Assembly: GCA_016932575.1 (NCBI GenBank)
Contig: JAFGCO010000071.1
Coordinates: 62,001-126,000 of the forward strand
Direction: 5' to 3'
DNA: 64,000 bases
Source: a bacterium
GTDB taxonomy: Bacteria; Zhuqueibacterota; QNDG01; JAFGCO01
This document shows positions 33,319-63,778 of this stretch, piece by piece. The stretch's first letter is position 1; each line of letters opens with the position of its first letter. The notes below the pieces were generated by a model, which worked only from the letters and a program-made list of their open reading frames with translations, ran no database searches and was not told the origin of the DNA. Both the position numbers and the translations under genes were made by a program.

Positions 33319-34161
33319 ATGACCAAGAAAAAGAAAAAACAATCAGTTATTCCCGGCTTTTCCATGAGCATGGGATTAACGCTTTCCTATCTGACTCTCA
33401 TTGTCCTGGCCCCCCTCTCCATGTTGTTCATCCGCGCAGCGGGACTGAATGTTTCAGAAATAAAACATATTTTATTATCGGAGAGAACCCTGTCAGCCTT
33501 TGCTTTGAGTTTTGGAGCCTCCCTCATTGCAGCGCTGATCAATTGTATTTTTGGATTTATTGTGGCCTGGGTTTTGGTTCGATATACATTTCCCGGTAAA
33601 GTATTTTTTGATGCATTTGTCGATTTGCCGTTTGCTCTGCCAACAGCCGTTGCGGGTATTTCTCTGACTTCCCTGTATATGACTTCCGGATGGATTGGCC
33701 GCTATTTTCATATTTTAGGAATAAAGGTGGCTTATACTAGGATTGGTATCATCGTTGCCCTGACTTTCATTGGTCTCCCATTTGTTGTCCGGACATTACA
33801 GCCTGTGCTTTCGGATATGGATAAACAGGCAGAGGAAGCCGCGGTCAGTCTGGGAGCTTCGAGATGGAAGACATTTATTCATGTTATACTGCCTGAAATT
33901 TCTCCTGCCCTGCTCACAGGATTTGCTTTGGCCCTTGCCCGCGCCATCGGTGAATACGGATCTGTTGTGTTTATCTCCGGGAATATGCCCAACAGGACGG
34001 AAATCGTTCCACTGCTGATTATGACCCGTTTGGAGGAATATGATTATTCCGGAGCAACAGTGATTGCAGCGTTTATGCTGATTGTCTCTTTTCTGCTGCT
34101 TTTAATGATTAATTTACTGCAGGGGTGGGGACAACGATTTCAAGAAGCGGAGAAGTTATGA
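33319..34161 (+). CDS. cysT: Sulfate ABC transporter permease CysT (CysU)
   Basis: 280 residues, about six membrane helices and the binding-protein-dependent transport motif EEAAVSLGASRWKTFIHVILPEISPALLTGFALALARAIGEYGSVVF region (the EAA loop). Starts at the base after the sbp stop; its TGA overlaps the cysW ATG. Confidence 0.95.
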   Translation: MTKKKKKQSVIPGFSMSMGLTLSYLTLIVLAPLSMLFIRAAGLNVSEIKHILLSERTLSAFALSFGASLIAALINCIFGFIVAWVLVRYTFPGKVFFDAFVDLPFALPTAVAGISLTSLYMTSGWIGRYFHILGIKVAYTRIGIIVALTFIGLPFVVRTLQPVLSDMDKQAEEAAVSLGASRWKTFIHVILPEISPALLTGFALALARAIGEYGSVVFISGNMPNRTEIVPLLIMTRLEEYDYSGATVIAAFMLIVSFLLLLMINLLQGWGQRFQEAEKL

Positions 34162-35060
34162 AAGATTATAGGTCAAAAAATGAAGATGTTCCGGTTCGGT
34201 TAAAAACACATCCTCTGACAGAACCCTGGCCAATCCGGTTATTACTTACAGCAGTGGCTTTTATTTTTCTCGGATTGTTTTTAATCATGCCTCTGGTTAT
34301 TGTCTTTTACAATGCATTGGCCGAGGGCTTTATTGCTTTTAAAAATGTGATCACAAATTCGGAAGCACTTTCTTCGATTCGATTGACTCTCATTGTTATC
34401 GGTCTTGCTGTGCCCATGAACATTGTATTTGGAATTCTGGCGGCCTGGGCGGTTACAAAATTTTCGTTTCGGGGAAAACAAATTCTTATCTCGTTTATTG
34501 ATTTGCCACTGACCGTGTCTCCGGTTATATCAGGGACTGTTTTTATTCTCATTTTTGGCCTGCACGGTGTGCTGGGTGAATGGCTGAATTCAATTCATGT
34601 GAAAATCGTTTTTGCGGTTCCAGGAATTGTCCTGGCAACGATTTTTGTCACTCTGCCTTATGTGGCACGGGAACTTATTCCTCTGATGCAGGCGCAGGGT
34701 TCGTCAGATGAAGAGGCGGCTGTCACTTTGGGTGCTTCAGGCTGGAAAACTTTTTTTAAAATCACTTTGCCCAATATTAAATGGGGTCTTTTTTATGGTG
34801 TGATCCTATGCACGGCCCGGGCTATAGGCGAATTTGGTGCCGTGTCTGTTGTATCAGGACACATCCGGGGCAAGACAGTGACGATGCCCCTTGAAGTGGA
34901 AATTCTTTACAATGAATATAATTTTTCTGCCGCTTTTTCCATTGCTTCGCTTTTGGCTTTGTTAAGCCTTGCTGCTATGGGTTTGAAAAAGCTCACTCAA
35001 AATAAAACAGAAAAAGTGGCCCTGGAACATGAGAAGTTTTTAAATATAACGGGAGTCTGA
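34158..35060 (+). CDS. cysW: Sulfate ABC transporter permease CysW
   Basis: 300 residues, six membrane helices, EAA loop EEAAVTLGASGWKTFFKITLPN and ARAIGEFGAVSVVSGHIRGKT. ATG 34158 (ATGA overlap with cysT, AGCGGAGAAG upstream) is preferred to the upstream GTG 34125. Partner of CysT in the membrane. Confidence 0.95.
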   Translation: MKDYRSKNEDVPVRLKTHPLTEPWPIRLLLTAVAFIFLGLFLIMPLVIVFYNALAEGFIAFKNVITNSEALSSIRLTLIVIGLAVPMNIVFGILAAWAVTKFSFRGKQILISFIDLPLTVSPVISGTVFILIFGLHGVLGEWLNSIHVKIVFAVPGIVLATIFVTLPYVARELIPLMQAQGSSDEEAAVTLGASGWKTFFKITLPNIKWGLFYGVILCTARAIGEFGAVSVVSGHIRGKTVTMPLEVEILYNEYNFSAAFSIASLLALLSLAAMGLKKLTQNKTEKVALEHEKFLNITGV

Positions 35061-35063
35061 TTT

Positions 35064-36125
35064 ATGGGTATTGAAATTTCCGGTGTTTCCAAGAGTTTTG
35101 GAAAATTTGTTGCATTAAACAATGTTCATTTGAATATTCAGGCCGGAGAACTGATCGCTCTGCTGGGACCTTCCGGATCAGGGAAGACCACATTACTGCG
35201 AATTATTGCAGGTCTGGAAAGTGCAGATGCAGGAGAGATCCGTTTATTTAATGAAGATACGATGAACAAAAAAGTAAAAGACCGTATGGTTGGATTTGTA
35301 TTTCAGCATTATGCTTTGTTTCGGCATATGACCGTTTTTGATAATATTGCATTTGGATTGCGTGTCCGGCCCCGCAGGACGCGTCCCGCGAAAACGGAAA
35401 TAAGAGACAAGGTTTTTTCATTGCTCCGTCTGGTTCAACTGGAACATTTTTCAGATCATTATCCCGCACAGCTATCCGGCGGTCAACGACAGCGGATTGC
35501 TTTGGCCCGTGCATTGGCTGTGGAGCCGAAAGTGCTTCTGCTTGATGAACCCTTTGGTGCTCTGGATGCCAAAGTGAGGAAAGAACTGCGCCGATGGCTG
35601 CGACGATTGCATGATGAGATTCATGTGACCACTGTGTTTGTAACCCACGATCAGGAAGAAGCTCTCGAAGTGGCCGACCGACTGGTGATTATGAATAATG
35701 GAGGGATTGAACAGATTGGAACACCTGAGGATGTATATCATAATCCGGTGAATCCCTTTGTATTCAATTTTCTGGGTGATGTGAATTTGTTTCGCTGCCG
35801 TATGGAGAATGGAGTGCCGCAGATTATCGGTCACGGCTCTGAAGCCACGGACAGCACCATGTCTGTTGTCCCGGAAGCATCTCAGGTTTATGTGCGTCCT
35901 CATTTGTTTGATGTCTCACTATTACCCAATGGATCCACACGGATTAAAGGTACAATTATGCATATCAATCCGGCCGGTCCTACTGTGAAACTGGAACTGG
36001 TCAGTGAATGGAACGAACGGATCGATGTGAACATTACACAAGAAAAATATCAGTCATTAAAATTAAATACCAACATGACTGTGTTTCTCAAACCCATACA
36101 AATGCATTCATTCAGGGAGCCATGA
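35064..36125 (+). CDS. cysA: Sulfate ABC transporter ATPase CysA
   Basis: 353 residues. Walker [14 protein letters not shown]-loop VFQHYALF, signature [16 protein letters not shown], Walker [14 protein letters not shown]-loop [10 protein letters not shown], then a TOBE-like C-terminal domain. Three bases after cysW. Last importer gene; the 3' neighbour has its own ribosome site. Confidence 0.96.
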
Positions 36126-48900: not shown

Positions 48901-49722
48901 ATGAAAAGAATATCAATCCGATGTATCGTGATCTTTGCAATCGTTATCTCACACCTTTTCATTATTGTCTGCGAAAAAAATCCTTCGGAATCTGAAAATA
49001 CGCCACCTGTCATGCCTCCACAGGAATCGATGATGATCGACCTGTCGAATTTTTCAGTTGGGGGAAATCAGTCTTTGAATAAATCGTCTCTTCCGCAAGC
49101 CAAGACGCACTTTGGCCTGGCTGTACTAACATTGGGCCTGGTCAATATTTCAGTCATGCTGCATCTGACAGTGCCAGTTTACATTTTTGGCCGTGCACTT
49201 CTGGAGAAACCCGAGCTGCAATCTGACGGTAAATTTCACTGGACTTACTCCACTGTCTATCAACTTTTCAATTATGAGGCGGATTTGGCCGGGTGGGTTG
49301 ATGTGTCCGAAACAGAAGTCAATTGGGAGATGTATGTCACGCAAGCAAAGCGCGGACTCGATCATTATCGGTGGTATGACGGCCATTGTAATCTTGATGC
49401 CACAGCAGGAGACTGGACATTTTACGACGCGTCTCAGCCGGATCAGCAAAATCCGGTCATTCAGATTAATTGGCAGATTCAAAGTGAGACTGACCGCTCT
49501 CTGGTATTCGCGAATATTTTTGAAGGCGATGAAAATATTGGTGACCAGCTGATCTATCAGATCGACGGGGATTCCGCCAGGGTGCAGTATTTGGATGCCT
49601 CTGAAGGGACAACCGCAAAAATTGTGTGGAACACGGAGACCATTGCCGGATATATCCAGGCGCCCAACTATAATGAGGGGAAGCCCGGGCGCTGGGATGA
49701 GAATCAGGAGGATATGAATTAA
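48901..49722 (+). CDS. Putative lipoprotein, unknown function
   Basis: 273 residues. The N-terminus ISHLFIIVCEKNPSESEN looks like a lipoprotein signal (Cys near residue 22), though Val at -1 is unusual. The body is a beta-rich globular domain without recognised motifs (VYQLFNYEADLAGWVDV, INWQIQSETDRSLVFANIFEG). GGAGGAGG precedes ATG 48901; the upstream frame from 48859 is not supported. Own sigma-70 promoter; convergent with nqrF. Confidence 0.6.
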   Translation: MKRISIRCIVIFAIVISHLFIIVCEKNPSESENTPPVMPPQESMMIDLSNFSVGGNQSLNKSSLPQAKTHFGLAVLTLGLVNISVMLHLTVPVYIFGRALLEKPELQSDGKFHWTYSTVYQLFNYEADLAGWVDVSETEVNWEMYVTQAKRGLDHYRWYDGHCNLDATAGDWTFYDASQPDQQNPVIQINWQIQSETDRSLVFANIFEGDENIGDQLIYQIDGDSARVQYLDASEGTTAKIVWNTETIAGYIQAPNYNEGKPGRWDENQEDMN

Positions 49723-49735
49723 GAAATTAATCAGT

Positions 49736-49885
49736 TCAGTTTGATTTATATTCCGAGATGCATTTTTTATGACGTCCGCATTGACAGGATTTCTTTTTCC
49801 TGTATCCGGCCTTATGCAATGTTATGCCCATAAATCCAACGGCAATTATGAATGCAGTGAAACTGATAATGATTTGATTCAGCAT
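49736..49885 (-). CDS. Tiny Cys-rich membrane protein after nqrF (possible NqrM-like)
   Basis: 49 residues, too short for usual ORF calling. One membrane helix (IIISFTAFIIAVGFMGITL), then a basic segment with three cysteines (KKKSCQCGRHKKC). AAAGG lies 4 bp before the ATG; 68 bp after the nqrF stop, same strand. NqrM (DUF539), an iron-delivery factor needed for NQR maturation, is likewise a small single-helix protein with four Cys after nqrF; FeoB-associated Cys-rich proteins look similar. Identity is inference. Confidence 0.5.
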   Translation of the reverse strand: MLNQIIISFTAFIIAVGFMGITLHKAGYRKKKSCQCGRHKKCISEYKSN

Positions 49886-49953
49886 TTTACCTTTTATTCT
49901 ATTTGCAGTTTTTGTAATAATTCAGGCTCACAGATTTAAGCTGTGCTTCATGA

Positions 49954-51186
49954 TCAACCAAAATCATCCAGGCATATATTGTCTTCTTCAACTCCGAGAC
50001 TGTCCAGCATGCCTAAAACGGCTGAGTTCATCTGGGGCGGGCCGCATATATAGTATTCACAATCTTCAGGAGCCGGGTGTTCCTTTAAATAAAGATCATA
50101 AAGTACCTGATGGATAAATCCGGTAGGGCCTTTCCAGTGGTCTTCATGCAAAGGTTCTGATAAAGCCAGGTTCCACGAAAAATTCGGATGTTTCTTCTGG
50201 AGGGCATCGAACTCATTCTGATAAAACACCTCCCGCAGGCTTCGGGCGCCGTACCAGAAGCTGATTTTTCGTTTCGAATTCAGCCGATTCAGTTGATCGA
50301 ATATATGCGACCGCATTGGCGCCATACCGGCTCCGCCGCCAATAAAAACCATTTCGGCGTCTGTATCTTTCGCATAAAATTCACCATAAGGTCCTGACAT
50401 AATCACCCGGTCACCAGGCTTCAGATTAAAAATATACGAAGACATTTGACCCGGGGGCGCATTGGGTTTGTCTGAAGGCGGCGTAGCAATCCGGACATTC
50501 AACATGATTATGTCCTTTTCTTCCGGATAGTTGGCCATGGAGTAAGCGCGTGACACCTCATCATGCACCTTGGAGACGTAGCGCCACATTTGCTCTTTTT
50601 CCCAGTCCTCACGATATTCTTCTTCGATATGAAAATCCTTGTACCGCACCACATGAGGCGGCGCCTCAATCTGGATATATCCACCGGCGCGGAAATCAAG
50701 TGATTCGCCGGAGGGCAGCTCCAGAATCAGTTCCTTGATAAATGTTGCCACATTTTTATTGGATTTTACCGTGCATTCCCATTTCCGTGCTTCAAAGACT
50801 TCGGGTGGCAATTCAAGTTTCAGGTCTTCTTTTACAGCAAGCTGGCATGAAAGGCGGTATCCTTCGTGAATCTCTTTCCGGCTCAGTATGGATGTTTCCG
50901 TGGGTAGAGCGGCTCCTCCGCCTGCAACCACTTTACATTTACACTGGCCGCATGTCCCGGCACCACCGCAGGCCGATGCCAGATAAACCTCCTGATCCGC
51001 CAGTGTATTCAGTAATTTATCTCCGATATTCACATGATAGGTATGATCAGGATCATCATTAATGGTAATCGTCACCTCTCCGCTGGGTATTAATTTTGAT
51101 TTCGCCAGAAGAATCAGTATGACCAGAGCGAGTACAATGGCAATGAACATTCCCACGCTAAGCAGAATCAATCCTAAATCAGTCAT
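49954..51186 (-). CDS. nqrF: Na+-translocating NADH:quinone reductase subunit F
   Basis: Electron entry subunit. One N-terminal membrane helix (residues 4-28), a 2Fe-2S ferredoxin domain with Cys73, Cys79, Cys82 and Cys114 ([14 protein letters not shown]), an FAD domain with RAYSMANYP and an NADH-binding domain with [21 protein letters not shown] and [10 protein letters not shown]. 410 residues, complete. AAGGA precedes the ATG, 30 bp after the flippase-like gene. It is separated from nqrE by six unrelated genes. Confidence 0.97.
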
Positions 51187-51216
51187 TAAAATCCTTTTTT
51201 TTGTTGTTCAATTGAG

Positions 51217-52134
51217 TTATTTTTTCTTAATTTTGTCCCATAATGTAACCATTAAAAAATTGATAAACACAACAAATAGTATAATGATTCGCTGAGATAA
51301 TAAGAAAGCGGCAATTTTTCCGGCATCAATATTATAATATTTAAGAACACCGGTCCAGCCGGCTTCCACAAAACCCAGACCTCCCGGTGTGATACCTATC
51401 AAATTACCGATCTGTGCGATTGAGGTGCCAAAAAATACCTGGATAAAATTTAAATTAATTTGAAATATGCATAAAAAGATCATATAGCGTATAACCACAC
51501 ATAAGTATTTTGAAAAAGTCAGCAGTGATAAAAATAATTTTTGCTTATTGGATAAAGTGATTGTGATGTCAGGAATCCATTTAATTGTATTTGCCTTTGA
51601 TATACCGGCGATGTAAATAGAGAAATGAATTGCAATGAATACCATGAAAATTAAAAGCGGTACGCAAAGGATCAGATACATTTCAGGGATCGGGCAAAAA
51701 ACGATAATGGGCATTAAAAGTAAAACAGATATAAGCAACAGTATTTCAAGCCCCTTGTCCCATAGAATAGATTTCATTGCTTTTTTTAATGGTATCTTAT
51801 CGCCGATATAAAGAGATTTGACGCCTACATCTCCGATAATCTGACTTATCGTTTGTCCGGAAAATCGAGCGAGCAAGGAGACCTTCAATATAAAGCCGTA
51901 TGTGAAATCAAATACTCCAATATGCCGAATAAGAAGGTGCCAGCGGTAGGAAGCAATAAGGTTTAATCCAAGTGTCAATATCCATATAATAAAAAGATCT
52001 CTCATTTTAAAATGAACGATCGATGTCCACGATTCACGTGTGCCGAGTTCAATTACGATAAACAAAAACAGTGCAAGGCCCAAAATGAATTTTAAAAATT
52101 GGACGAGCTTTTTTTTATCGATTATTTTTTTCAT
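51217..52134 (-). CDS. LPG-synthase-TM/UPF0104 family membrane protein (flippase-like)
   Basis: 305 residues with about eight membrane helices and the family blocks FSGQTISQIIGDVGVKSLY and IGITPGGLGFVEAGWTGVL. Members (AglD-like, MprF core) move or modify lipid-linked groups. The frame opens upstream; ATG 52134 overlaps the sulfotransferase end by 20 bp. The DNA is visibly AT-richer than the nqr genes. Function here probably linked to the neighbouring glycan genes. Confidence 0.8.
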   Translation of the reverse strand: MKKIIDKKKLVQFLKFILGLALFLFIVIELGTRESWTSIVHFKMRDLFIIWILTLGLNLIASYRWHLLIRHIGVFDFTYGFILKVSLLARFSGQTISQIIGDVGVKSLYIGDKIPLKKAMKSILWDKGLEILLLISVLLLMPIIVFCPIPEMYLILCVPLLIFMVFIAIHFSIYIAGISKANTIKWIPDITITLSNKQKLFLSLLTFSKYLCVVIRYMIFLCIFQINLNFIQVFFGTSIAQIGNLIGITPGGLGFVEAGWTGVLKYYNIDAGKIAAFLLSQRIIILFVVFINFLMVTLWDKIKKK

Positions 52135-52984
52135 ATCCAAATTCGGGTGACAGAAGTTTTGAGAGAATCTGATTGGTGTATTCAATATCTGATTCACTGA
52201 AGTGATTTTTCCAGTCACCAATCATGCCTTTACGCGTCTTGAATGAACGTTTATCTTTTTTATTCCCCGGTTTTAACCAGGGTATTTTAAACTTACCATC
52301 AGATTCCATTTTACGCATATTATCTAAAGAAGCATTTTGAATAGCAGTTTGTAATTTATGTTTATCTATATTCGTTTCTCCAATGAGATTAAGAATCTTG
52401 ACTATTACAAGTTCAGGATTTTGTTTTAGATCTTCATAGCGTACAATTAATAACTCATGAAATAGTTCCTTTGCATCCAGCCAACGATTCATAAATACGA
52501 CGATTTTTTTTATTCCGAGTAATGGATCTTTGATGAATTCAGATAAAGGATCTTTATAGATTTTTTCTCGGTATGTCAGATGGTACCAGCTTGATACGAG
52601 AATATCTCGTGGATCCCGTGCAAGAAAGACGATTTTTTTATTGGCATATTTTGATTTATTTATTGATATTTTTTCCGGTTTCCGGGGAAAAGGAACCCAT
52701 GTGGATTGGTCATGTTCAAAGACCACTCCCAAATGACTTTCAAGATAGGAAAAGTCTATGCTGTCAGAATGGATTGAATTAGAGTAATACATAACCAGAA
52801 TCATCCGCAACCAGGTTCTTCCACATTTGGGGTATGATATGATATATGTTTCCGGATTTGAGTAGGTCAGCGTATTTAAAATGTATGTTTTTATATAAAA
52901 TGGTAACAGGCGCCAGTCCGATACGATTTTTAAAAGTTTATCAATACAATTTTTCATGCAGAATGTAATCGGATGTATCGCCAT
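52115..52984 (-). CDS. PAPS-dependent sulfotransferase
   Basis: 289 residues. 5'-phosphosulfate loop SYPKCGRTWLRMIL, 3'-phosphate site FLARDPRDILVSSWYHL, and the late GDWKNHFS motif. It would transfer sulfate from PAPS to a sugar or lipid. AT-rich. ATG 52984 lies 8 bp after the methyltransferase stop; a sulfate importer is 20 kb away, but no PAPS genes are in the window. Confidence 0.92.
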   Translation of the reverse strand: MAIHPITFCMKNCIDKLLKIVSDWRLLPFYIKTYILNTLTYSNPETYIISYPKCGRTWLRMILVMYYSNSIHSDSIDFSYLESHLGVVFEHDQSTWVPFPRKPEKISINKSKYANKKIVFLARDPRDILVSSWYHLTYREKIYKDPLSEFIKDPLLGIKKIVVFMNRWLDAKELFHELLIVRYEDLKQNPELVIVKILNLIGETNIDKHKLQTAIQNASLDNMRKMESDGKFKIPWLKPGNKKDKRSFKTRKGMIGDWKNHFSESDIEYTNQILSKLLSPEFGYEKNNR

Positions 52985-52992
52985 AATTTATA

Positions 52993-53691
52993 TCAACTTT
53001 TTTCACATATTATTAATTGGTTTGCCATAATGAAACTGAATCCCAAAGTACGAAAAATCTTTTCAAAAAATTTTTCAGCGGGAAATCCAATCGGAGAGAA
53101 CATAAACTTATATTTATCGATCACAGTAAATTGCTGTTGTTCCAATAGACGCTGCAAAGCTTTTAAAGTAAACTCCTGATGGTGTCCCGGTTCTTTTAAA
53201 AGGCCGATTTTTTCGGAAATATGGGCAAGCAGAGGATTTGGTGTCGTTATGATGAAAAGCCCTCCCGGTATAAGTATGTCACGCACATTATGAATAAACC
53301 CGGATGCATTCGGTACATGTTCGATAACAGCAGTCGCGATTACGATGGAGACAGAATCAGGTCGGATCGGACAGCGCAAGGCATCCCCCTGCACCTTATT
53401 TATATGTATTGAAGGATTGCTGGACAGCAGATCAAAGCAGTAATCTAATCCGATATACAAATAGTCACCATTTAATCGACTGGATAATTGGCTGAGCATC
53501 AAGGCATCGGCTGTACCAATATCCAAAATTGATCCTGTTTTTGAATGCCTGTATTTATTGATCATTTGAACGACTTCATCCGTTCTTCTTCTCAGGCGAT
53601 ATTTCAGTGCGGTGTTGGTCTGTCGTCCGATATAATAAGAGATATCATACACACCCTTCGGATATGCTGGCTTTGAATTTTTATTGGACAT
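52993..53691 (-). CDS. Class I SAM-dependent methyltransferase
   Basis: 232 residues. SAM motif I ILDIGTADALMLSQL, acidic loop IGLDYCFDLL, motif IVIATAVIEHVPNASGFIHNV and LIPGGLFIITTPNP. Methyltransf_11 type; substrate unknown. ATG 53691 is used (TTG 53697 also opens the frame). Between the radical SAM and sulfotransferase genes. Confidence 0.9.
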   Translation of the reverse strand: MSNKNSKPAYPKGVYDISYYIGRQTNTALKYRLRRRTDEVVQMINKYRHSKTGSILDIGTADALMLSQLSSRLNGDYLYIGLDYCFDLLSSNPSIHINKVQGDALRCPIRPDSVSIVIATAVIEHVPNASGFIHNVRDILIPGGLFIITTPNPLLAHISEKIGLLKEPGHHQEFTLKALQRLLEQQQFTVIDKYKFMFSPIGFPAEKFFEKIFRTLGFSFIMANQLIICEKS

Positions 53692-53705
53692 ATTCAATGA
53701 TTTGT

Positions 53706-55121
53706 TTATTTCATTAATATAACTTTTATTCCCGCCCTTAATTTTCTTCTTAATTCACCTAAAGATCGGATTTTTGTTAACCGTTTGAGTATGTACCCCG
53801 GACGGGTGTAAAATTGTTGATAACCGGTGATAAGGAGTTCGTGCAATTCATCCAGTGTAAAGTTTTCATTCCAATGCGGAGGAGTAAAATCCGAAGTCGG
53901 ATTTGATGCGAATTCTCTCCAGTAGTCCCTTATGATTATTCCCTTTTTCAAACCGTCAAAATAAATTTTTGTACCAGGAAAAGGGGTCAGTATGGTCATG
54001 TGAATAAAGTCGGCATCGAGTTTTTTGGTGAAAGCAAATGTTTCCAGTATATCTTCTCTGGTTTCTGTCGGATTCCCAATCATGAAATACGCAAGCGTCA
54101 TGAGACCGTGTTTGCGGGTCATACGAAATGCGTTTTCAATTTGATCGAGATGAATTCCTTTATTCAGGATTTTGAGGATTTTCTCTGTGCCCGCTTCAAC
54201 TCCGTAATGAATGCCACGGCAACCCGCCTTTTTCAGTTTGGTCAGTAACTCGTCGTCTATGGTATCGACACGGGCCCGGATGTCCCATCCGACATCAAGT
54301 TTTCTTCGTACGATTTCATCGCAAATGCCTTTGGCCCGGTCCCGTTTTACCGTGAATGTGTCATCATACATGATAAACTCATGGATTCCCATTCGGGTGC
54401 ATGTTTCCATTTCATCGACAACATTCCCTGTTGAGCGGGCACGGAATAATTTACCCAGCTGTGGCCGGTCGCAAAATGTGCACTGGTAAGGACATCCCCT
54501 GCTTGTCATCATAATTGTAACCGGGGTTCGTCGGGCCAGCAGGGAACTGTATTTATGGTAGGGCGTTAAATGACGGGCCGGGAAAGGCAGCCTGTCAAGA
54601 TCCCGAATAAAATCACGGATACCCGTATTAACCAGATTCCCATCTTGATAAAAAACAAGCCCGGGAATTTTTCGTAACACATTGAAATCATCAATATGAT
54701 CTACTAATTGCAGGAATGTTTCTTCTCCTTCTCCGAGAACGACGTAATCAACCCCGTCCAGTTGAATGGTCTCGTCTGGAAACAGATGGGCATGGGGCCC
54801 GCCCAATACAACCTTGGCATTTTTGTTGATCTTCTTTACAATTTGAATTGTCTTGATCACATCCAGCATTGTGAAGGTCATTGCAGTCAGTCCGACCACA
54901 TCAAAATTTATCTGCATTAAACGGTTTTCGATCTGTGGGTAGGATAATTCTTCCACCTGGCAGTCTAAAACATTAATTTTATAACTGGAATTGGTTTCCA
55001 GATAGCCTGCAAGATACAACAATCCCAGAGGGGGATTGCATCCCCGTTCTTCTTCGATAATTTCAGGATTGTTACCAATGATTTCATTTTCTGAAGGGGG
55101 ATTTATGAGTAATATTTCCAT
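53706..55121 (-). CDS. B12-binding radical SAM protein
   Basis: 471 residues. N-terminal cobalamin-binding-like domain (INPPSENE, LGGPHAHLFPDE, DYVVLGEGEETF), then radical SAM core with the 4Fe-4S cysteines in SRGCPYQCTFCDR and a C-terminal helical part. Such enzymes (class B methylases and P-methylase relatives) act on lipids, sugars or antibiotics. Its place between a glycosyltransferase and a methyltransferase suggests modification of a lipid-linked glycan. Confidence 0.92.
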   Translation of the reverse strand: MEILLINPPSENEIIGNNPEIIEEERGCNPPLGLLYLAGYLETNSSYKINVLDCQVEELSYPQIENRLMQINFDVVGLTAMTFTMLDVIKTIQIVKKINKNAKVVLGGPHAHLFPDETIQLDGVDYVVLGEGEETFLQLVDHIDDFNVLRKIPGLVFYQDGNLVNTGIRDFIRDLDRLPFPARHLTPYHKYSSLLARRTPVTIMMTSRGCPYQCTFCDRPQLGKLFRARSTGNVVDEMETCTRMGIHEFIMYDDTFTVKRDRAKGICDEIVRRKLDVGWDIRARVDTIDDELLTKLKKAGCRGIHYGVEAGTEKILKILNKGIHLDQIENAFRMTRKHGLMTLAYFMIGNPTETREDILETFAFTKKLDADFIHMTILTPFPGTKIYFDGLKKGIIIRDYWREFASNPTSDFTPPHWNENFTLDELHELLITGYQQFYTRPGYILKRLTKIRSLGELRRKLRAGIKVILMK

Positions 55122-55133
55122 AATGATCTTCAG

Positions 55134-56027
55134 TTATTTTCTGTGGCTGTCATAGGTTCGCTGATTGATTAATTCAGCGAGCAATCCGATCATGGCAATT
55201 TGAATTCCGGCCATAACGATAGTAAGGGTACTTGCATCCGCAAATCTGTCCAATACAAATATAGTAAAAGCTCCCCACGCAATGGCAAAAAGAATAATTA
55301 TCCCGCTCAAAGGCAGAAATATTTTTAACGGCGCAAAGTACAGCCCGATTCGAAAAATCAGTTTGATGAAGTTGGCAGTATCCCGAATGGGTCTGATTTT
55401 GGATTTGCCTTTTCTTGCATGGTAGTCGATCGGGTGATACGTGACTTGATAATCGTTCAAATGCATAGCAAGAGTGATCGTGGTAGTAAATGAGAAACCA
55501 TCCGACAAAAAACGTAAAAACGGATCGAGAGCATTGCGCCTGATCACCCGAAGCCCGGAATTAAAATCAGGGATATTGTCTTCCACGATCCAGTCAGATA
55601 ATTTTTTAAGAAACCATTTGGCCATGCTTCGTGCTTTAGGTATTTTTACCTGATGACCGGTTCGGGCACCCACAACCATGTCCTGTTCATGATTCACCAG
55701 ATCTTGAACAAGCATGGGAATGGCGGATGAGGGGTATGTGCCGTCTGCATCTGTGATACAGATAATTTCATAAATTGCCTGGCGTATTCCGGTTTTTAGG
55801 GAAGCACCATAGCCGAGATTACGTTTATGCCGGATTACTTTCACTTTATACGATTCAGCAATGGTATGTGTATCATCTGTGGAGCCATCATCAACAACGA
55901 TGATTTCCCACCGGTTTGGCTGAGCCATATTCTTTAATTTTTCCAGTGTGATACCAATTCCCTTACTCTCATTATAAGCCGGCACAATAATGGACACTTC
56001 GGGTACTTTTTTTGATGAAATTGCCAT
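55134..56027 (-). CDS. Family 2 glycosyltransferase (polyprenyl-phosphate type)
   Basis: 297 residues. GT-A fold with VSIIVPAYNESKGIG, DDGSTDDTH and DADGTYPSSAI; two C-terminal membrane helices (LKIFLPLSGIIILFAIAWG and a second ending LLAELINQRTYD) as in DPM1/ArnC-like enzymes that load a polyprenyl phosphate. ATG 56027 with GGAGAA ahead is preferred over ATG 56048 or 56087, which lie inside the neighbour. Starts right after the upstream stop (TGATATG). Confidence 0.9.
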   Translation of the reverse strand: MAISSKKVPEVSIIVPAYNESKGIGITLEKLKNMAQPNRWEIIVVDDGSTDDTHTIAESYKVKVIRHKRNLGYGASLKTGIRQAIYEIICITDADGTYPSSAIPMLVQDLVNHEQDMVVGARTGHQVKIPKARSMAKWFLKKLSDWIVEDNIPDFNSGLRVIRRNALDPFLRFLSDGFSFTTTITLAMHLNDYQVTYHPIDYHARKGKSKIRPIRDTANFIKLIFRIGLYFAPLKIFLPLSGIIILFAIAWGAFTIFVLDRFADASTLTIVMAGIQIAMIGLLAELINQRTYDSHRK

Positions 56028-56028
56028 A

Positions 56029-57594
56029 TCACTGTTTCTCCTGTTCATCAGAAGATAATTTTTTGTTCTGGAGTAAAATCCATTCATTCTGTATATTCAT
56101 GACCTCAAAGGATTCAAAGTAATCCTTATCTTTCATCGGTATCAGGCCGCGGATTAAAATATAATCCACATTGATATATTGCCCCTGATAATTGTAATAA
56201 TACCAGAGCCATTCCTGATAATACGGCAATCTGTCTGGTCCTGCTTTTCGGCCTACGGCCCAGGGTGTTGGAAATTCGACAAACCGGTTTGTGGCGATCC
56301 CGTTATTCCATATCATAAAATAATTTGGCATATGCATATAAACCGGCTGACCCCGAAAAAGACTTTGATACATCATCCCTGCAAGCACTTTATCCTGTGT
56401 GTGCTCCGGAAACAGATCCGGTGTAAAATCACGGTTCTGTTTTTGAAAATCAGTAAAATAGTCAATCCATAAAAAGAAATGAATCAATAGGGCAATACCA
56501 AAAAGAACAGGTCGTAATTTTATTTTTCGGTTTGAAGCCATGAGCGAACCGAATAATATCAGCCCAAGGAAAACGAAAACAGAAAAACGATAGTAGGAGT
56601 ATAATAGCATGCCTTTGATGGAAGAAATAAAAATATAGACCAGAAGAGCAAATGCCAGGAATGAAACCACAAATCGAAATTCCGGTTTCCGTGAATTTTC
56701 TTTTATGCATGCAATGGGCCGGTTCAGAAAATTAAATGCAGCGGTCAGGATGAAAACCGAGAACATGGCGCCAATCCATTTTCCCTGAGATCCGCCATGG
56801 AGGAATGAATGATCCCAGTGAAACAAACCAAGGCGCCTCGGAAATGTGGGAAGATAATCATGTGTATAATACTGAATCAACCGGGCCAATACACCTTCAT
56901 CACTGCCCGATTCTGTGATACGAAGGGACAGCCATTTCAAAACGACAATCAGAATAGGAATAAAAATGAGTCCACTGAATATCAGTTGTCTGGGTTTTTT
57001 GAAATGAAAAATAACCGTCTGTAAAACAAATAATGCTACAGCAAAAAATGTGATCAGACCATGTACATGAAAAAGAAGGACGAAGAATAAACTTAAAATG
57101 ATTCCATCTTTGAAACCGGGTTTCATAATAAAATCATATTGCTTTGCCATCAATAGCAGCAGTAAAGGGATACCGAGCATGTAATCTGTGAATCCCCAGC
57201 ATACATTATAATTATATAAAAAGATGAATGCCAGTAATGTAAACCAGATGTTGCCTTTAAATTTTCGAATTAGAATATACGTGCTCGCTGGAAGTAAAAG
57301 TACATAAAGCGTATAAAAGACCTTGTTCGCAATTTCTGCGGTCGGGAATCCTTTAAAACTGCAAAAAAGCAGATGTGCAACGTTGGGCTGAAACAGAATG
57401 TTCCTCAGTACAAAAAATTCGTTGAAGGCATTGTCAGGCTGATCGAAATTTTTAAAGATGTGGGCACATGCCAAATGCATGGGCAGATCGATGAATGGGA
57501 AGAGCCGAATGATCCAAATCATCAGCACATGCAGAGCAATGCCCACACTGAATAAAACGAAAAACGCTTTATAATTTCCTTCAGAATATTTCAT
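56029..57594 (-). CDS. Large multi-helix membrane protein, probable GT-C glycosyltransferase
   Basis: 521 residues with about ten membrane helices. An early acidic loop ([14 protein letters not shown]) after helix 1 resembles the catalytic loop of GT-C (family 39-like) enzymes, which use polyprenyl-linked sugar donors; a soluble C-terminal domain follows. Its ATG overlaps the nqrE stop (ATGA), so translation is coupled to NQR. The GT-C call is from topology and loop, not from a clear family match. Confidence 0.65.
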
Positions 57595-58202
57595 AACTGA
57601 ATTCCTGAAAATAGCATGAACGCGATGGCCAGCAGGCCAACCGTGATGAATGTGATCCCCAGACCGCGCAGACCCGCAGGTACATTACTGTATTTCATCT
57701 TTTCCCGAATTCCAGCGAGAGCGATTACGGCCAGTGCGAACCCTGTTCCGGAACCCAGCCCGAAAACGATGGATTCCGGAAATGTATAACTGCGTTCCAC
57801 CATAAACAGCGATCCGCCCAGAATGGCGCAGTTCACTGTGATCAGCGGCAAAAAAATACCCAGGGCATGGTAGAGTTTGGGAACGAATTTATCGAGTGCC
57901 ATCTCCAGGATTTGCACCATGGCGGCGATAACACCGATGTATGTGATCAGTCCAAGAAAGGTTAAATCCACATTTTCAAGACCGGCCCACTTAAGAGCAT
58001 CCTCCCTTAACACATAATTGTAAATTAAATTATTGACCGGCATGGTAATGGTTTGCACCACAACCACAGCAATACCCAATCCTACTGCTGTTTCCACCCG
58101 TTTTGAAACAGCGAGAAATGTGCACATGCCCAGAAAAAATGCCAGAGCCATATTTTCAATGAAAATTGATTTAATGAACAAACTTAAATAATGTTCTAAC
58201 AT
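57591..58202 (-). CDS. nqrE: Na+-translocating NADH:quinone reductase subunit E
   Basis: 203 residues, six membrane helices, typical [24 protein letters not shown] opening region and [13 protein letters not shown]. Homologous to NqrD and together with it holds a 2Fe-2S centre in the membrane (Cys in GMCTFL and VNCAIL). CGGAGA precedes the ATG. Its last codons overlap the first gene of the inserted glycan block. Confidence 0.97.
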
Positions 58203-58283
58203 TAAAATCTCCGTGTTTTACAAACAGCCGCCTTCTTCCACAGCATATCCTAAGTCACTGGACCCTCGAGAGGGAACAGCAGA

Positions 58284-58904
58284 TTAATATTCTTCAACCT
58301 GTTCGGGTTTCCAGGTTCTGAGCACCCATATGATCAAACCAATCAGAAAAAATGCGCTGGGCGGCAGTAATAAAAGTCCATTCGGGATATACCATCCGTT
58401 TTCCGTGTGCAGAGGGAGCACGGATATCCCCAATAATTTTCCTGAGCCCAGCAATTCCCGGAAAAATCCCACGGTCAGCAGAATGACTGTATATCCGAGA
58501 CCGTTGCCAATCCCGTCCAGCAAGCTGTACAAAGGTGGATTTTTCAGTGCAAAGGCTTCGGCGCGCCCCATAATGATACAGTTGGTGATGATGAGTCCGA
58601 CATACACAGAAAGCTGTTTGCTGATGTCATAAGCAAAAGCTTTGATAATCTGGTCCGCGATGATCACTAGACTGGCAATGATGGTCATTTCTACTATAAT
58701 ACGCACACTGCCCGGAATATGATGCCGTATCAGGCTGACTGCCAGATTGGAAAAAGCCAGAACGAAGATCACGGCCAGAGACATGACAATGGATGTTTCC
58801 AGCTTTGATGTCACAGCCAGTGCCGAGCAAATTCCCAGAATCTGGTATGCAATGGGATTCTCATTAAATATGGGATTGATAAGTATGCTTTTCGTCTTAC
58901 TCAT
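58284..58904 (-). CDS. nqrD: Na+-translocating NADH:quinone reductase subunit D
   Basis: 206 residues, six membrane helices; [23 protein letters not shown] and [17 protein letters not shown] carry the conserved cysteines of the intramembrane 2Fe-2S centre. ATGA overlap with nqrC; 81 bp gap to nqrE. Confidence 0.97.
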
Positions 58905-59707
58905 AGATTTCCTTTTTTTATGGCAGATGTCAGATAGTTGATATAAGGTCCCCAGCCTGATTTTCCCAGCCAGAAACGAACGAGATTGTTGACACCGCGT
59001 GTGGTCAGAGTCGACCCGGAAAGGCCATCAACCTGATATTTGGCTTTCGGGGAAGCGGGATTGACCTGACCTTTGACAACTTCGATTTTCAGCTCTCCCT
59101 CCTCATCAAAAGCCTGTTTGTCGATCCACAGCCGTTTCCAGCGGGGATTATCGACTTCGCCGCCCAGTCCCGGTGTTTCACCATGTTCATAAAAAGTCAG
59201 AGCCTGTATGGTCCTCAGATCAGATCCCAGAGCAAGAAAACCATACATCGTTGACCAAAGACCCTTGCCATATACGGGCAGTATCCGTTTGGTAACAGAA
59301 TCCCGCTGAATGACATTGTAAACAATCATATATCTGGGTACATTCTTAATTTGCGCTGCATCATCTTCCGGAGGCAGAGGACGAGTATATTCGTCAATTT
59401 TGGAAATTTCTTTGATATTAAACTGGTCTGCTTTCAGGGATTCATCCAGTTTTTGAGGATCAATCGGAATGCCTTTTTCCAGATGTATTATTTCAGCGCG
59501 GATATGTTTTCGGAACAGGCTCTGAAGATCGGCATCATTGTTTTGAAGCAAGCCTGCTGCACTCAGGATGTTATGCAATTTGTCGTTTTCCTGATTTTGG
59601 CGCTGAATGGGTTTCAGGGTGACTGCCGTTGTGGCAACCAGAATTGCGCAAACCAGACAGACACCAAGCGCCACTGTCAATATTTTCATTGTGGACTCAT
59701 TTTTCAT
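58901..59707 (-). CDS. nqrC: Na+-translocating NADH:quinone reductase subunit C
   Basis: 268 residues. One N-terminal membrane helix, a periplasmic domain and the covalent FMN site [12 protein letters not shown] with Thr233 as the probable flavin-bound residue (family consensus SGAT). [12 protein letters not shown] and [14 protein letters not shown] are family blocks. 71 bp after nqrB. Confidence 0.96.
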
Positions 59708-59778
59708 AAGAAATTCCAGTCATTAATATTCAAATTCAAGAAGTCAATTTAAAAATGATCGATGTAATCGTACTTTAA

Positions 59779-60978
59779 TTATTTCATCCTTTTCTCTCTT
59801 CTTCGGATATTCGAATGGATAAAGATACGGTCGATTATGGGTGCAAATGCGTTTCCAAAGAGAATGGCTAACATCACACCTTCGGGAAAAGCCGGATTAA
59901 TGACCCGGATCAGAACGATGAGAAAACCGATCAGCATTCCGTAGATTATTTTCCCCTGTTCCGTAAAGGCTGCAGACACGGGATCTGTCGCCATGAAAAC
60001 AGTGCCGAATGCGAAGCCGCCGAGCACCAGATGCCAATGCGGTTCCAAAGCAAACATGGGATTCGTCGCACTGCCAATCCAGTTAAACATCAGAGAGGTG
60101 CCCACCATGCCGGTGAGAACACTGGCCATGATTTTCCAGGATCCGATTCCTGTTAATATTAACACTGCCGCTCCGATAAGACAGGCAAGCGTTGAGGTTT
60201 CTCCCATAGAACCGGGAATGAATCCGCAAAAAGCATTCTTCCATGAGACTGAAAGCTGCATGGCAGGATCGGCCAATTCAGCCAGTGGTGTGGCCCGGCT
60301 AATACCATCCACAGCAACCCAGACTTTGTCTCCCGAAATCTGAGCAGGATAAGCAAAGAATAAAAATGCCCGCCCAACCAATGCCGGATTGAAAATGTTC
60401 ATTCCGACACCGCCGAATACCTCTTTGCCCAGGACAATACCGAATGAAATACCGAGTGCCGCCTGCCAATAAGGAATATCCGGCGGCAGGATCAACGGAA
60501 AGAGCAGACTGGTGACTAAAAACCCTTCATTAATTTCATGTTTTCGTACACAGGCAAAGATGACTTCCCAGGTTCCGCCAATAACAAGAGACAGGATATA
60601 AAGCGGAAGAAAGTAAAGTGCGCCGTGAATCAGATTGGCCCAGATATTCGTTGGATCAAAACCGATTCCTAAAAAGGAGAGGAATGAACGCTGCCAGCTT
60701 CCCGCGGGAATTTCAGATAATGTTGTAAGTATTTGATTGGCCTGCAGTCCGGTATTGAACATGGCCATGATCACTGCAGGAACCAGTGCGAAAAATACAG
60801 TGATCATCATACGTTTCAAATCCATGACATCCCGTACATGAGATCCCGATAGTGTGACATCCCCCTTGGTATATAAAAAACCATCCAGTGCTTCCCATAA
60901 ATAATAGAGAGATTCAAATCGACCGCCTTTTTCAAAATGCCTGGCCTGTTTATCCAATAAATTCCGAAATGCTTTCAT
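59779..60978 (-). CDS. nqrB: Na+-translocating NADH:quinone reductase subunit B
   Basis: 399 residues, about ten membrane helices; [24 protein letters not shown] and the FMN site [11 protein letters not shown] with Thr230 (family consensus SGATPL; Arg replaces Gly here). ATG 60978 overlaps the nqrA stop by one base (TAATG) and has AAGGAAGG ahead; the longer frame from 61059 lies inside nqrA. Confidence 0.97.
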
Positions 60979-62333
60979 TAACCTTCCTTTTCGATCAAAT
61001 TCAGATTGCGCCGCAGATTCGCCATATGGTCGATTTTGGAGGGACAGATAAACGTGCAAAGTCCCAAATCTTCTTCCACCAATTCAAGACATCCCAGTTT
61101 TTCCGCCTCATCCAGATCATCCACAGCCAAAGCACGCAATAGATAGGTGGGCAGTATATCAAGAGGCATCACTTTTTCATATCCACCGGATGGTACTATG
61201 GTGCGTTTCCCTCCATGCATATAAGTCATAAAATTGAATTTCTTGTTCGGGGCAAGTGAGGAGAGGAGAATTCGTTTTGTCGAGAAAAGATTCCATCCCG
61301 GATTAAGCCATCCCAGAAATTCGCGGTTATGCTGCTCAGGTAAAACGGTCACCTGCTGATGATAGCGTCCAAGAAAACCCGTTTGATTTTCTGCTTTATG
61401 ACCGCTGAGTACAGATCCTGAAATCGGCCTGTGATTACCAGGCCGGATTTCATCTCGGGTAAGATCAGAAACAGAAGCTCCCACGCGGGTTCGAATCATT
61501 CGGGGATTTTTAATCATAGATCCGGCCAGAGAAATAATCCGTTCAGTTGAGATTTGACCTGTCGTGAATAATTTTCCTATCGCAATGACATCCTGTATTC
61601 CGATATGCCAATTGATTTTTCTCCGGTGCACCGGATCCAGAAAATGGATATGGGTAGACGGGAGGCCTGCAGGATGAGGCCCTGAAAATATCACAGGTTC
61701 TACACGGCTTGAATCGATACACGGAATTTTGATATCGGGAGGCTGACAAATGTATATTTTACCTTCGATTAATTTTTCAAGCACAATCACACCATAGGTA
61801 AAATCTTCTTTCTGTCCTTCTAAAATTTTATTGATATAAGGTGCCATAGGATTGGTATCAATGGCAGTGATAAAGATTGCATGGGGGCGTGTCGCGGGAT
61901 CAGCAATCTTGCCGAAGGGGCGGGATCGTAAAGATGTCCAGAGACCGGATTCAATTAAAAGGCTTTGAATGATGTCGGTTTTCAGTAAATGTAATTTGTT
62001 TTGATTATATTGAGGAAACTCAGCCTTATTATTCCCATTCAGATCGATGACGATCGATAAAAACATGCGTCGTTCTCCCCGGTGGATTGCTGAAACACGG
62101 CCGGATCCAGGTGAGGTCAATCGGATGGATGGATTCTTTTTATCTGTGAATAAAACCTGTCCCAGTTTCACAGTGTCTCCAATATTCACATTAAAGAAGG
62201 GTTTTAAACCCGGATAATCGGTTCCAAGCAATGCGACCTGAGTAACATCGGACCCGTTAAAAACTGCCGGGACGGGTTCCCCTTTGATTGGAAGATTTAA
62301 TCCTTTTTTAATATTAACAACTTTCATATCCAT
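60978..62333 (-). CDS. nqrA: Na+-translocating NADH:quinone reductase subunit A
   Basis: 451 residues, soluble subunit. The opening [38 protein letters not shown], and the end [22 protein letters not shown] are standard. First gene of the operon; ATG 62333 or 62327, weak ribosome site. NQR pumps sodium while passing electrons from NADH to quinone, so the cell likely keeps a sodium cycle. Confidence 0.96.
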
Positions 62334-62407: not shown

Positions 62408-63778
62408 TTATCCTAAGAATTTAGGTGGCGCTTCCTCAGCTTTTGGCAGTGTAAAATAAAATGTTGTTCCCTTTTCGATCCGGTTTTCTGCCCAGATCCT
62501 GCCGCCGTGTGATTGGACGATTTGTTTTGCTATCGATAGTCCCAGCCCTGTTCCGGACTTTTCGAAGGATTTGGCATTCCCGGCTCGATAGAAATCCCGG
62601 AATATATCGGACAATTCGTCTGGAGAAATGCCTATTCCCGTATCCGTGATGCTGACCAGAATATCGGTTTCAGAAATGGATTCCGTACGGATCATGATTT
62701 TTCCGCCCGAAGGTGTGTATCGGATTGCATTGTTGATTAAATTCATCAGAAGTTCTTCGATATCCATTGCATTTACTTTCACCCAATTATTCTGCCCGAT
62801 ATTTGCCTTTAGCGACAGATTTTTATTTATTGCCAAAATCTGATTTTGTTCTATTGATCGTTCTATAATATTTTTTAATAATATGGTTTGTGTCTTCAAA
62901 TGCTTCCGTGCCCGTATGCTGGATAAATTCAGCAGATCCTTGACAAATTTATTGAGTAATTCACACCGGTTTTCAGCACGGCTGATCATTTGCAGTGCAT
63001 TGTCTGAGACAGGTCCGGTGTTGCCGTCCTGAACGACCTGAAGGCAGATCTGTATTGTGGACAGTGAGGATTGAATATCGTGAGACACTTTTTTGACATA
63101 TTCAGATTTCATTTTATCCTGTATCGACAGACGTTCATTGGCCAGCAGCAGGGAGCGTTCACCTTTCCTGAGACGGTTCACAATGGATGTGGCTAAAAAA
63201 ACCGTGATGTACAGAGTGGAAGCAATGATAATTAAAACACCAATGAAATATTGGGGACTCAGCGGGGAAGAAGGGTATGGGAAAAATCCTTCCAGATGGT
63301 GATGCCTTAAAATACCTGTACATTCCATTACAGCAATGGCTGTCAGCAGAAAAACGGCCAAAGTCGCTTGAAAATAAGCGGCCCTGTTGCTCAAAAGCAT
63401 GCTGGCGATAACCATGTGAAAGATGAAGTAAAAAATGAAGGGATTTTCAAGACCACCGGAAAAATGGATAAAATAGGCCAGCAGAAAAAGATCTGTTGAA
63501 ATTTGAAGTTTTGCGATACGTGTGGCCATGGGAAACCAGTCGGGTTGACCGCGCCGGCGTATGAGTTTTTTATTGATAAAATTCAATCCGGAATTGTAGG
63601 CAAGCAAAATGGCGTTTCCGATGAACAGCGATAAAAGATCCAACTCAATTTTTAAAAGATAACGTGTGCCCAGGACAACAAAAAACACTCCGGCCGCGGC
63701 AAACCATCGAATAAAAATCAGCCATCGCAAGCGTTCATCCAGTTCACGTTCAAGAGCAATACGTCTGATGCTGCCCAT
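62408..63778 (-). CDS. Sensor histidine kinase with multi-helix membrane domain
   Basis: 456 residues. About six membrane helices (residues 20-205) with little periplasmic sequence, then HisKA with His in KKVSHDIQSSLSTIQ and HATPase_c with LINNAIRYTPSGG, DTGIGISPDEL and GTGLGLSIAKQIVQSHGG. No response regulator is adjacent inside the window; the gene runs the same way as nqrA, 74 bp upstream of it. GGAAG lies before the ATG. Confidence 0.9.
   Translation of the reverse strand: MGSIRRIALERELDERLRWLIFIRWFAAAGVFFVVLGTRYLLKIELDLLSLFIGNAILLAYNSGLNFINKKLIRRRGQPDWFPMATRIAKLQISTDLFLLAYFIHFSGGLENPFIFYFIFHMVIASMLLSNRAAYFQATLAVFLLTAIAVMECTGILRHHHLEGFFPYPSSPLSPQYFIGVLIIIASTLYITVFLATSIVNRLRKGERSLLLANERLSIQDKMKSEYVKKVSHDIQSSLSTIQICLQVVQDGNTGPVSDNALQMISRAENRCELLNKFVKDLLNLSSIRARKHLKTQTILLKNIIERSIEQNQILAINKNLSLKANIGQNNWVKVNAMDIEELLMNLINNAIRYTPSGGKIMIRTESISETDILVSITDTGIGISPDELSDIFRDFYRAGNAKSFEKSGTGLGLSIAKQIVQSHGGRIWAENRIEKGTTFYFTLPKAEEAPPKFLG

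Follow-up and report, generated by a model that had tools for sequence, protein, structure and literature searches.

A surface-glycan-type gene block inside the nqr operon of a KSB1 bacterium: an old core and a tail that differs between genomes

Why would the operon of a respiratory sodium pump hold what look like genes for surface chemistry? This question is raised by a 64,000-nucleotide stretch of DNA from an uncultured bacterium, here called the window (assembly GCA_016932575.1, contig JAFGCO010000071.1, positions 62,001 to 126,000). On its minus strand, nqrA-nqrB-nqrC-nqrD-nqrE of the Na+-NQR are followed by six cargo genes, and only then by nqrF. The cargo genes encode, in order, a GT-C-like glycosyltransferase candidate, a family 2 glycosyltransferase (GT2), a B12-binding radical S-adenosylmethionine (SAM) enzyme, a methyltransferase, a sulfotransferase and an LPG_synthase_TM protein. 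The locus is a new arrangement of known types of parts, in which a surface-glycan-type module with an old core (the first three genes) and a changing tail (the last three) lies within an energy operon. We consider it reasonably probable that the block forms a self-contained unit within the nqr operon, has an exchangeable tail, and serves to add one modified sugar to surface glycans, glycolipids or proteins.

Position and rarity of the split

The contig that holds the window is 139,650 bases long and is one of 72 in a genome of 4.41 Mb. Each of the six Nqr subunits scores above the equivalog cut-off of its NCBIfam profile (Table 1), which indicates a complete Na+-NQR. The motif regions are as in relatives: the 2Fe-2S cysteines, FAD and NADH motifs of NqrF, the FMN-threonine region of NqrB and NqrC, and the DGISRATPL region of NqrB. 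We take the 2Fe-2S, FAD, NADH and FMN-threonine motifs to have their usual cofactor roles. All genes from nqrE to nqrF are co-directional, and the largest gap between them is 30 bp. The stop of nqrE and the start of the GT-C-like gene share an ATGA at 57594-57591, a 4-bp overlap. The junctions from nqrE to nqrF measure -4, 1, 12, 14, 8, -20 and 30 bp, with ATG starts at 56027 (GT2), 53691 (methyltransferase) and 52134 (LPG_synthase_TM). The last of them separates the final cargo stop at 51217 from the nqrF start at 51186. The original prediction had given this order, strand, overlap and 30-bp gap from sequence, and open reading frame (ORF) coordinates and family profiles confirmed them. Based on the tight spacing, the block is probably co-expressed with the nqr operon.

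A related block is found in a second genome, candidate division KSB1 bacterium isolate bin.322 (G002), which belongs to another family of the same order. It also sits between nqrE and nqrF (JABMRT010000106.1, locus L065), inside a 66,680-base contig, and contains five cargo genes: GT-C (64% identical), GT2 (82%), radical SAM (79%), a different methyltransferase and LPG_synthase_TM (37%). This block shares 1 bp with nqrE and 4 bp with nqrF, and 68 and 37 bp flank its methyltransferase gene. Gaps of at most 30 bp from nqrE to nqrF in the window uphold the view that the block is tightly built into the operon, and the G002 block shares its site. G007, from the same family as G002, has an NQR and no block; its nqrE and nqrF are 114 bp apart and it has no GT-C homolog.

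The split arrangement is real and uncommon. In a first survey, NqrF orthologs were present in 24 of 59 phylum genomes, including the window genome. The nqr loci of 20 of the other 23 were fetched, and 19 of them have nqrE next to nqrF. When 82 phylum genomes were then searched with a joined NqrE+NqrF query, 30 gave an NqrF match of at least 65% identity. The two genes are adjacent in 27 of these (longest gap about 160 bp), split in two (the window genome and G002) and at a contig end in one (G058). This count leaves aside NqrE-only matches, an adjacent pair in G073 (44%), and five matches of 41-47% that end at query residue 379-381 (G069, G076, G014, G026 and G022). Among 198 genomes of another phylum, nine have a match at E 1e-60. 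Six of these span the full NqrF and are all adjacent (longest gap about 145 bp); three partial matches (G206, G245, G270) were not counted. That NqrF normally follows nqrE directly, as first proposed, thus holds for 27 of 29 assessable phylum genomes and 6 of 6 in the other phylum. The proposed comparison of nqr loci for the same insertion found a related block in G002, but not in the 27 genomes with adjacent genes. The G073 pair (contig C498, 810-2501; locus L085) is divergent, with 44% identity over the joined query, and unlike the phylum's usual NQR.

The six subunits, their canonical relative order and their common strand agree with the known nqrABCDEF operon. The six or five non-respiratory genes between nqrE and nqrF do not. 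The nqrABCDEF order has been described, and parts of PMC4014512 report a chlamydial nqr operon in three fragments. This is a dispersal of the operon, unlike the cargo inside it here. Literature searches for insertions at the nqrE-nqrF junction, at the level of titles and abstract openings and with subscription papers outside their scope, returned no paper describing one. The term 'nqr' is absent from the main text of PMC9012183, a paper on KSB1.

Core and tail

Base composition separates the block into two parts. The nqr genes of the window have a G+C fraction (GC) of 0.433-0.473. Forty reference ORFs of at least 200 amino acids elsewhere in the window, nqr genes included, have a mean of 0.444 (standard deviation 0.021, minimum 0.396). 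Relative to these, the sulfotransferase (0.338) and LPG_synthase_TM (0.340) genes are strongly AT-rich, the methyltransferase (0.393) and GT-C (0.386) genes fall just below the minimum, and GT2 (0.423) and radical SAM (0.427) are in range. In G002, where the comparison is with its nqr genes (0.445-0.489), the values are 0.411 for GT-C, 0.426 for GT2, 0.463 for radical SAM, 0.357 for the methyltransferase and 0.326 for LPG_synthase_TM. The tail is therefore clearly AT-rich in both genomes, the methyltransferase of the window least so. The original prediction had described the cargo, mainly 51217-53697, as AT-richer than the nqr genes. Against the reference ORFs, AT-richness is strong for the sulfotransferase and LPG_synthase_TM genes and marginal for the methyltransferase and GT-C genes, and GT2 and radical SAM are ordinary.

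The tail also differs between the two genomes. The two methyltransferases are 21% identical over 131 residues and the LPG_synthase_TM proteins 35-37% (37% over 283 residues). The sulfotransferase gene is present in the window block and absent from that of G002. Tail homologs at E<=1e-20 were found in two of the 82 phylum genomes, these same two. The tail therefore seems to have been exchanged.

The core has a different history. Between the window genome and G002, identity at fourfold-degenerate sites is 0.33-0.35 in the core genes, 0.31 in rpoB and 0.25-0.44 in the nqr genes, where 0.25 is expected by chance. Since these sites are near saturation while the GT2 and radical SAM proteins remain 82% and 79% identical, the sequences indicate that the core is old and constrained at the protein level, and not a recent copy. 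An earlier suggestion that the cargo arrived later than the nqr genes fits the tail, which is AT-rich and differs from that of G002, but not the core, which is old and constrained, with ordinary GC in two of its three genes.

Predicted chemistry and its alternatives

Five of the six cargo proteins contain the expected Pfam domains. The exception is the first, GT-C-like protein. It matched no Pfam family (up to E 1) or NCBIfam model, the known GT-C profiles PMT, PMT_2 and others included, and no sequence in the Protein Data Bank (up to E 1). Its structure model was compared with solved structures by two methods. Foldseek puts oligosaccharyltransferase or translocon entries, which we read as one and the same catalytic subunit, in its first eight rows. 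Rows 1 to 43 from a second aligner consist of GT-C enzymes and of subunits with a GT-C fold (Z 16.2-8.4), and row 44 is FtsW at 5.8. The 43 rows include AftA (16.2), oligosaccharyltransferase catalytic subunits (about 15), Pmt4 (13.8) and ArnT (5f15; 13.3 over 373 residues, rmsd 6.7). The chains in the translocon and GPI-transamidase entries are presumably the GT-C-fold subunits. In GT-C enzymes, the first extracytoplasmic loop carries an acidic residue that is conserved. D36, in an FxDxPxH motif that the model places in the first loop, is invariant in five of five aligned homologs. A GT-C fold is thus supported by a model of modest confidence.

The GT2 resembles dolichol- and polyprenyl-phosphate sugar synthases in sequence. 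Its best curated match is AglJ (TIGR04182, 120 bits against a cut-off of 325), and it passes no named-synthase cut-off. Its matches among solved structures include DPM synthase, sll0501 and ArnC; the sll0501 alignment extends to residue 291 of 296. C-terminal transmembrane helices were read directly off the sequence, without a prediction tool. The radical SAM protein contains both domains and the CxxxCxxC motif as CPYQCTFC, and is predicted to be B12-dependent. Its best solved structure is 6fd2, apramycin biosynthetic oxidoreductase 4 (8.4e-34), and no cut-off was passed among the best 25 of its 38 curated-profile matches. The sulfotransferase contains the SULT-type motifs ypkcgrtwl, ardprdilvss and rkgmigdwknhf, and aligns with bile salt sulfotransferase 3f3y through YPKxGxxWL, RxPRD and RKGxxGDWKNHF. 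We assume that these motifs bind the sulfate donor 3'-phosphoadenosine 5'-phosphosulfate (PAPS). Adenosine 5'-phosphosulfate kinase, for PAPS supply, is encoded in the window genome and also in G002, G004 and G049. Elsewhere in the window (32302-36125, plus strand) lie ABC transporter genes for a binding protein, two permeases and an ATPase with a TOBE_3 domain, read as sulfate-type; such a transporter could feed PAPS synthesis. The LPG_synthase_TM protein scores 40.2 bits with TIGR00374, just under the cut-off of 43.2.

Together these families suggest a pathway. The GT2 would load a sugar onto polyprenyl phosphate at the cytoplasmic face. The radical SAM enzyme, methyltransferase and sulfotransferase would modify the sugar or its acceptor in the cytoplasm. 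LPG_synthase_TM may aid the lipid-linked sugar across the membrane, which is the weakest of the steps, and the GT-C-like enzyme would pass the sugar to an acceptor outside. The core would have been kept between nqrE and nqrF over a long time, and the tail, which would set the chemistry, swapped, as at surface-antigen loci. The site in a respiratory operon most likely provides only steady expression, through read-through and translational coupling, and nqrF would remain the last gene of the transcription unit.

The pathway resembles three-component systems in which, as set out in parts of PMC11127046, polyprenyl phosphate is charged, the sugar flipped, and a GT-C enzyme transfers it outside. 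Like the GtrA-GtrB-Gtr type and the Citrobacter youngae O1 ribosylation system (GT136), the block clusters a GT2-type synthase, a GT-C-like transferase and a candidate flippase, and has variable genes next to constant ones. It differs in its candidate flippase, an LPG_synthase_TM protein and not one of GtrA/SMR or MATE type, in the added radical SAM enzyme, methyltransferase and sulfotransferase, and in its site in a respiratory operon. The GT-C protein is constant and the modifying enzymes vary in the block, whereas the GT-C protein is the serotype-specific part of Gtr systems (PMC11127046, in part). For such systems, the block offers candidates for the charging and the transfer steps, a weaker one for the flippase, and three modifying enzymes; we infer that a modified sugar is transferred to an external acceptor. 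ArnC and ArnT offer another likeness, as the GT2 matches ArnC structures and the GT-C model aligns with ArnT. The block differs from them in having no Pfam PMT-type match and no other Arn-type gene. ArnC and ArnT act in the transfer of aminoarabinose from undecaprenyl phosphate to lipid A.

Several points weigh against a module for surface decoration. The GT-C model has a pLDDT of 56 and a pTM of 0.60, from a five-row alignment, and Foldseek gave no match under E 0.001. With the second aligner, the best Z of five mostly helical models that Foldseek did not place clearly was typically 14; for this reason we give weight to the agreement among all 43 rows and to the drop from there to row 44, and not to Z by itself. 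Substrate, acceptor and product are predictions from gene families, as is the flippase role of LPG_synthase_TM; the flippases of the three-component systems are of GtrA/SMR or MATE type, at least in the parts of PMC11127046 that describe them. Co-expression is predicted from spacing, and a scan for promoter-like (28, against 37 in shuffled sequence) and terminator-like sites (16, against 14) was uninformative. Exchange of the tail is judged from one pair of genomes, two split genomes being known, and weaker tail homologs exist, for example a 28% methyltransferase in G049. The GT-C and GT2 homologs of G049 and G011 lie on separate contigs and need not pair there.

A doubtful alternative is that the radical SAM enzyme, methyltransferase, sulfotransferase and LPG_synthase_TM alter a lipid of the membrane, such as a head group of hopanoid or isoprenoid type, and that the GT-C and GT2 proteins add its sugar. 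The best curated scores of the radical SAM protein are indeed those for BchE (214 bits, cut-off 481) and HpnJ (212 bits, cut-off 578), both well short of the threshold. The top structures for the sulfotransferase are bile-salt and hydroxysteroid sulfotransferases, with aryl sulfotransferases scoring almost equally. The GT-C-like protein and the polyprenyl-phosphate-type GT2, however, point to a lipid-linked sugar donor, and in G049 the genes around the GT-C homolog read as polysaccharide genes, one neighbor having PMT domains.

In favor of a pathway of its own, relatives of the cargo genes also occur away from nqr. GT-C homologs were found in four of the 82 phylum genomes, and the same four contain all GT2 homologs of at least 55% identity (up to 12 candidates per genome scored). 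Another contig of G049 carries a 57% GT2 homolog with an FrhB-type gene, two methyltransferase genes and a Sulfotransfer_3 gene after it. One of these methyltransferases, the 28% homolog, aligns over nearly its own full length with that in the window. The nqr operon of G049 is uninterrupted, and because this cluster lies off it, relatives of the GT2, methyltransferase and sulfotransferase genes can be said to cluster without nqr. In G011, a 25% GT2-like gene adjoins the GT-C gene. A GT-C alignment scan of named genomes gave four loci: the G002 block, the G011 locus (L067), L066 (Krumholzibacteriota) and L068 (Deltaproteobacteria). No nqrA-E query match lies beside the GT-C gene in L066 or L068, and no NqrF match at E 1e-60 was found in either genome; a 29% partial nqrF match lies about 6 kb from the GT-C gene in L066. 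A gene at 14622-16082 of locus L086 in G049, with GT2 and methyltransferase genes nearby, has a Sulfotransfer_3 domain from residue 176 and an N-terminal region that reads as membrane-spanning.

Could the position itself matter? Two related proposals address this. In one, which we regard as unlikely, the nqrE-nqrF junction in part of KSB1 is a chromosomal exchange site at which the modifying tail (methyl, sulfate, flippase) is swapped behind a constant core that charges and transfers the sugar; expression of the surface chemistry would be tied to that of the pump, such that envelope charge, for example through sulfation, and sodium-motive force covary. In the other, which is rather unlikely, the product, a sulfated or methylated glycoconjugate of the surface or membrane, benefits the pump or the membrane's sodium balance, and selection has favored joint expression with NQR for that reason. 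Retention of the site in two families despite near-saturated fourfold sites, and the overlap of nqrE with the GT-C gene in both genomes (4 bp in the window, 1 bp in G002), would fit such coupling. Against it, 27 of the 29 assessable phylum genomes have no block at this junction, G007 has an NQR and no GT-C homolog, and relatives of the cargo genes lie off the intact nqr operon of G049. The preferred reading remains a surface-decoration module lodged in the operon and probably co-expressed with it.

Descent, neighboring genes and meaning

RpoB is 78% identical between the window genome and G002, and five housekeeping-type window proteins, read without family calls and taken to be FtsZ, HflX, SppA, XseA and NadK, are 49-61% identical. 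An RpoB tree of nine genomes (FastTree) groups G002 with G007 (0.999) and places the window genome beside them (0.596). NqrABCD also groups G002 with G007 (94/87), and does not reject the window genome with G002 (p-AU 0.155, approximately unbiased test). NqrF weakly rejects G002 with G007 (p-AU 0.031) and not the window genome with G002 (0.317); NqrE rejects neither grouping (0.39 and 0.326). Co-transfer of nqrF with the block is left undecided by these trees. Two histories would fit: descent of the block from a common ancestor, with loss in G007, or an ancient move.

That the entire block came recently by horizontal transfer into both lineages has very little likelihood. The identity of the GT2 and radical SAM proteins, which is higher than that of the five housekeeping-type proteins and on a par with RpoB, and the contrast between the NqrF and NqrABCD trees would suit it. 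But the tree contrast is weak, and NqrD and NqrE are about equally conserved in G007, which has no block. Near-saturation of the core fourfold sites, about as far advanced as in rpoB, disfavors such a transfer. Among the repeats inspected in 49000-59000 (20 of 26 direct families and 25 of 27 inverted pairs), no convincing border pair was found, and the block was rejected as a mobile element. The six cargo genes contain no integrase or transposase domain; ORFs under 90 amino acids were outside this search. That faulty assembly or binning brought two unrelated regions together, an assembly join being named at the outset as a refutation, would suit a 72-contig assembly but has an almost negligible likelihood, because a related block lies at the same site, interior to its contig as the window block is, in another organism.

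The flanks of the operon contain further genes (Table 1). The gene before nqrA in the window (62408-63778, minus strand), and also in G002 and G007, encodes a histidine kinase whose membrane domain is PilS-like; this kinase is possibly an nqr regulator. Proteins of 49-56 amino acids with a single transmembrane (TM) segment and C-terminal cysteines lie less than 900 nucleotides after nqrF in four of six loci of the order examined: the window, L035 (about 517 nucleotides after nqrF), and L038 and L039 (just after). None was seen in L036 or L037. The window protein has no Pfam match. Its plan resembles that of NqrM, and it is a candidate for an unannotated NQR maturation protein. A CBS-domain-like protein follows nqrF in 11 of 22 relatives' loci and is not among the ORFs listed for the window. 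In several other relatives' loci, a protein that reads as ApbE-like follows nqrF.

Table 1. Genes of the split nqr operon and of its downstream flank
Feature	Position	Strand	Basis and remarks
nqrA	60978..62333	-	TIGR01936 529 bits, cut-off 321
nqrB	59779..60978	-	TIGR01937 542 bits, cut-off 350; match from residue 32 of longer ORF; start taken as ATG at 60978 (one-base overlap with nqrA stop), listed ORF begins at 61059
nqrC	58901..59707	-	TIGR01938 239 bits, cut-off 144; FMN-threonine motif region present
nqrD	58284..58904	-	TIGR01939 322 bits, cut-off 245
nqrE	57591..58202	-	TIGR01940 339 bits, cut-off 248
Core 1, candidate membrane glycosyltransferase of GT-C-like type, 521 aa	56029..57594	-	GT-C-type model alignment
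Core 2, GT2 of polyprenyl/dolichyl-phosphate sugar synthase type, 297 aa	55134..56027	-	PF00535 2.4e-35
Core 3, B12-binding-domain radical SAM enzyme, 471 aa	53706..55121	-	PF02310 1.6e-26, PF04055 7.2e-25
Tail 1, class I methyltransferase	52993..53691	-	PF13489 3.2e-15; start taken as ATG at 53691, ORF listing begins at TTG 53697
Tail 2, cytosolic-type sulfotransferase, 289 aa	52115..52984	-	PF00685 1.6e-26
Tail 3, membrane protein of LPG_synthase_TM / flippase-like type, 305 aa	51217..52134	-	PF03706 48.5 bits, cut-off 33.4
nqrF	49954..51186	-	TIGR01941 681 bits, cut-off 295; 2Fe-2S, FAD and NADH motifs
Candidate NqrM-like maturation protein, 49 aa, one TM segment, C-terminal cysteines	49736..49885	-	Similar small ORFs follow nqrF in three further genomes of the order
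CBS-domain-like protein (loci L035, L036, L037, L043, L044, L045, L049, L050, L052, L054, L084)	Downstream of nqrF		Pfam CBS for the L035 copy, others by likeness

Operons for respiratory complexes are usually treated as closed units. Here, an unrelated module of envelope-glycan type occupies a fixed internal junction in two families, which suggests that a core energy operon can be a landing site for surface-chemistry genes. The locus also brings up a group of GT-C-like proteins that has no Pfam family, and predicts a surface product bearing sulfate or methyl groups in KSB1 bacteria. If the proposed coupling were true, a link between sodium bioenergetics and envelope chemistry would become testable.

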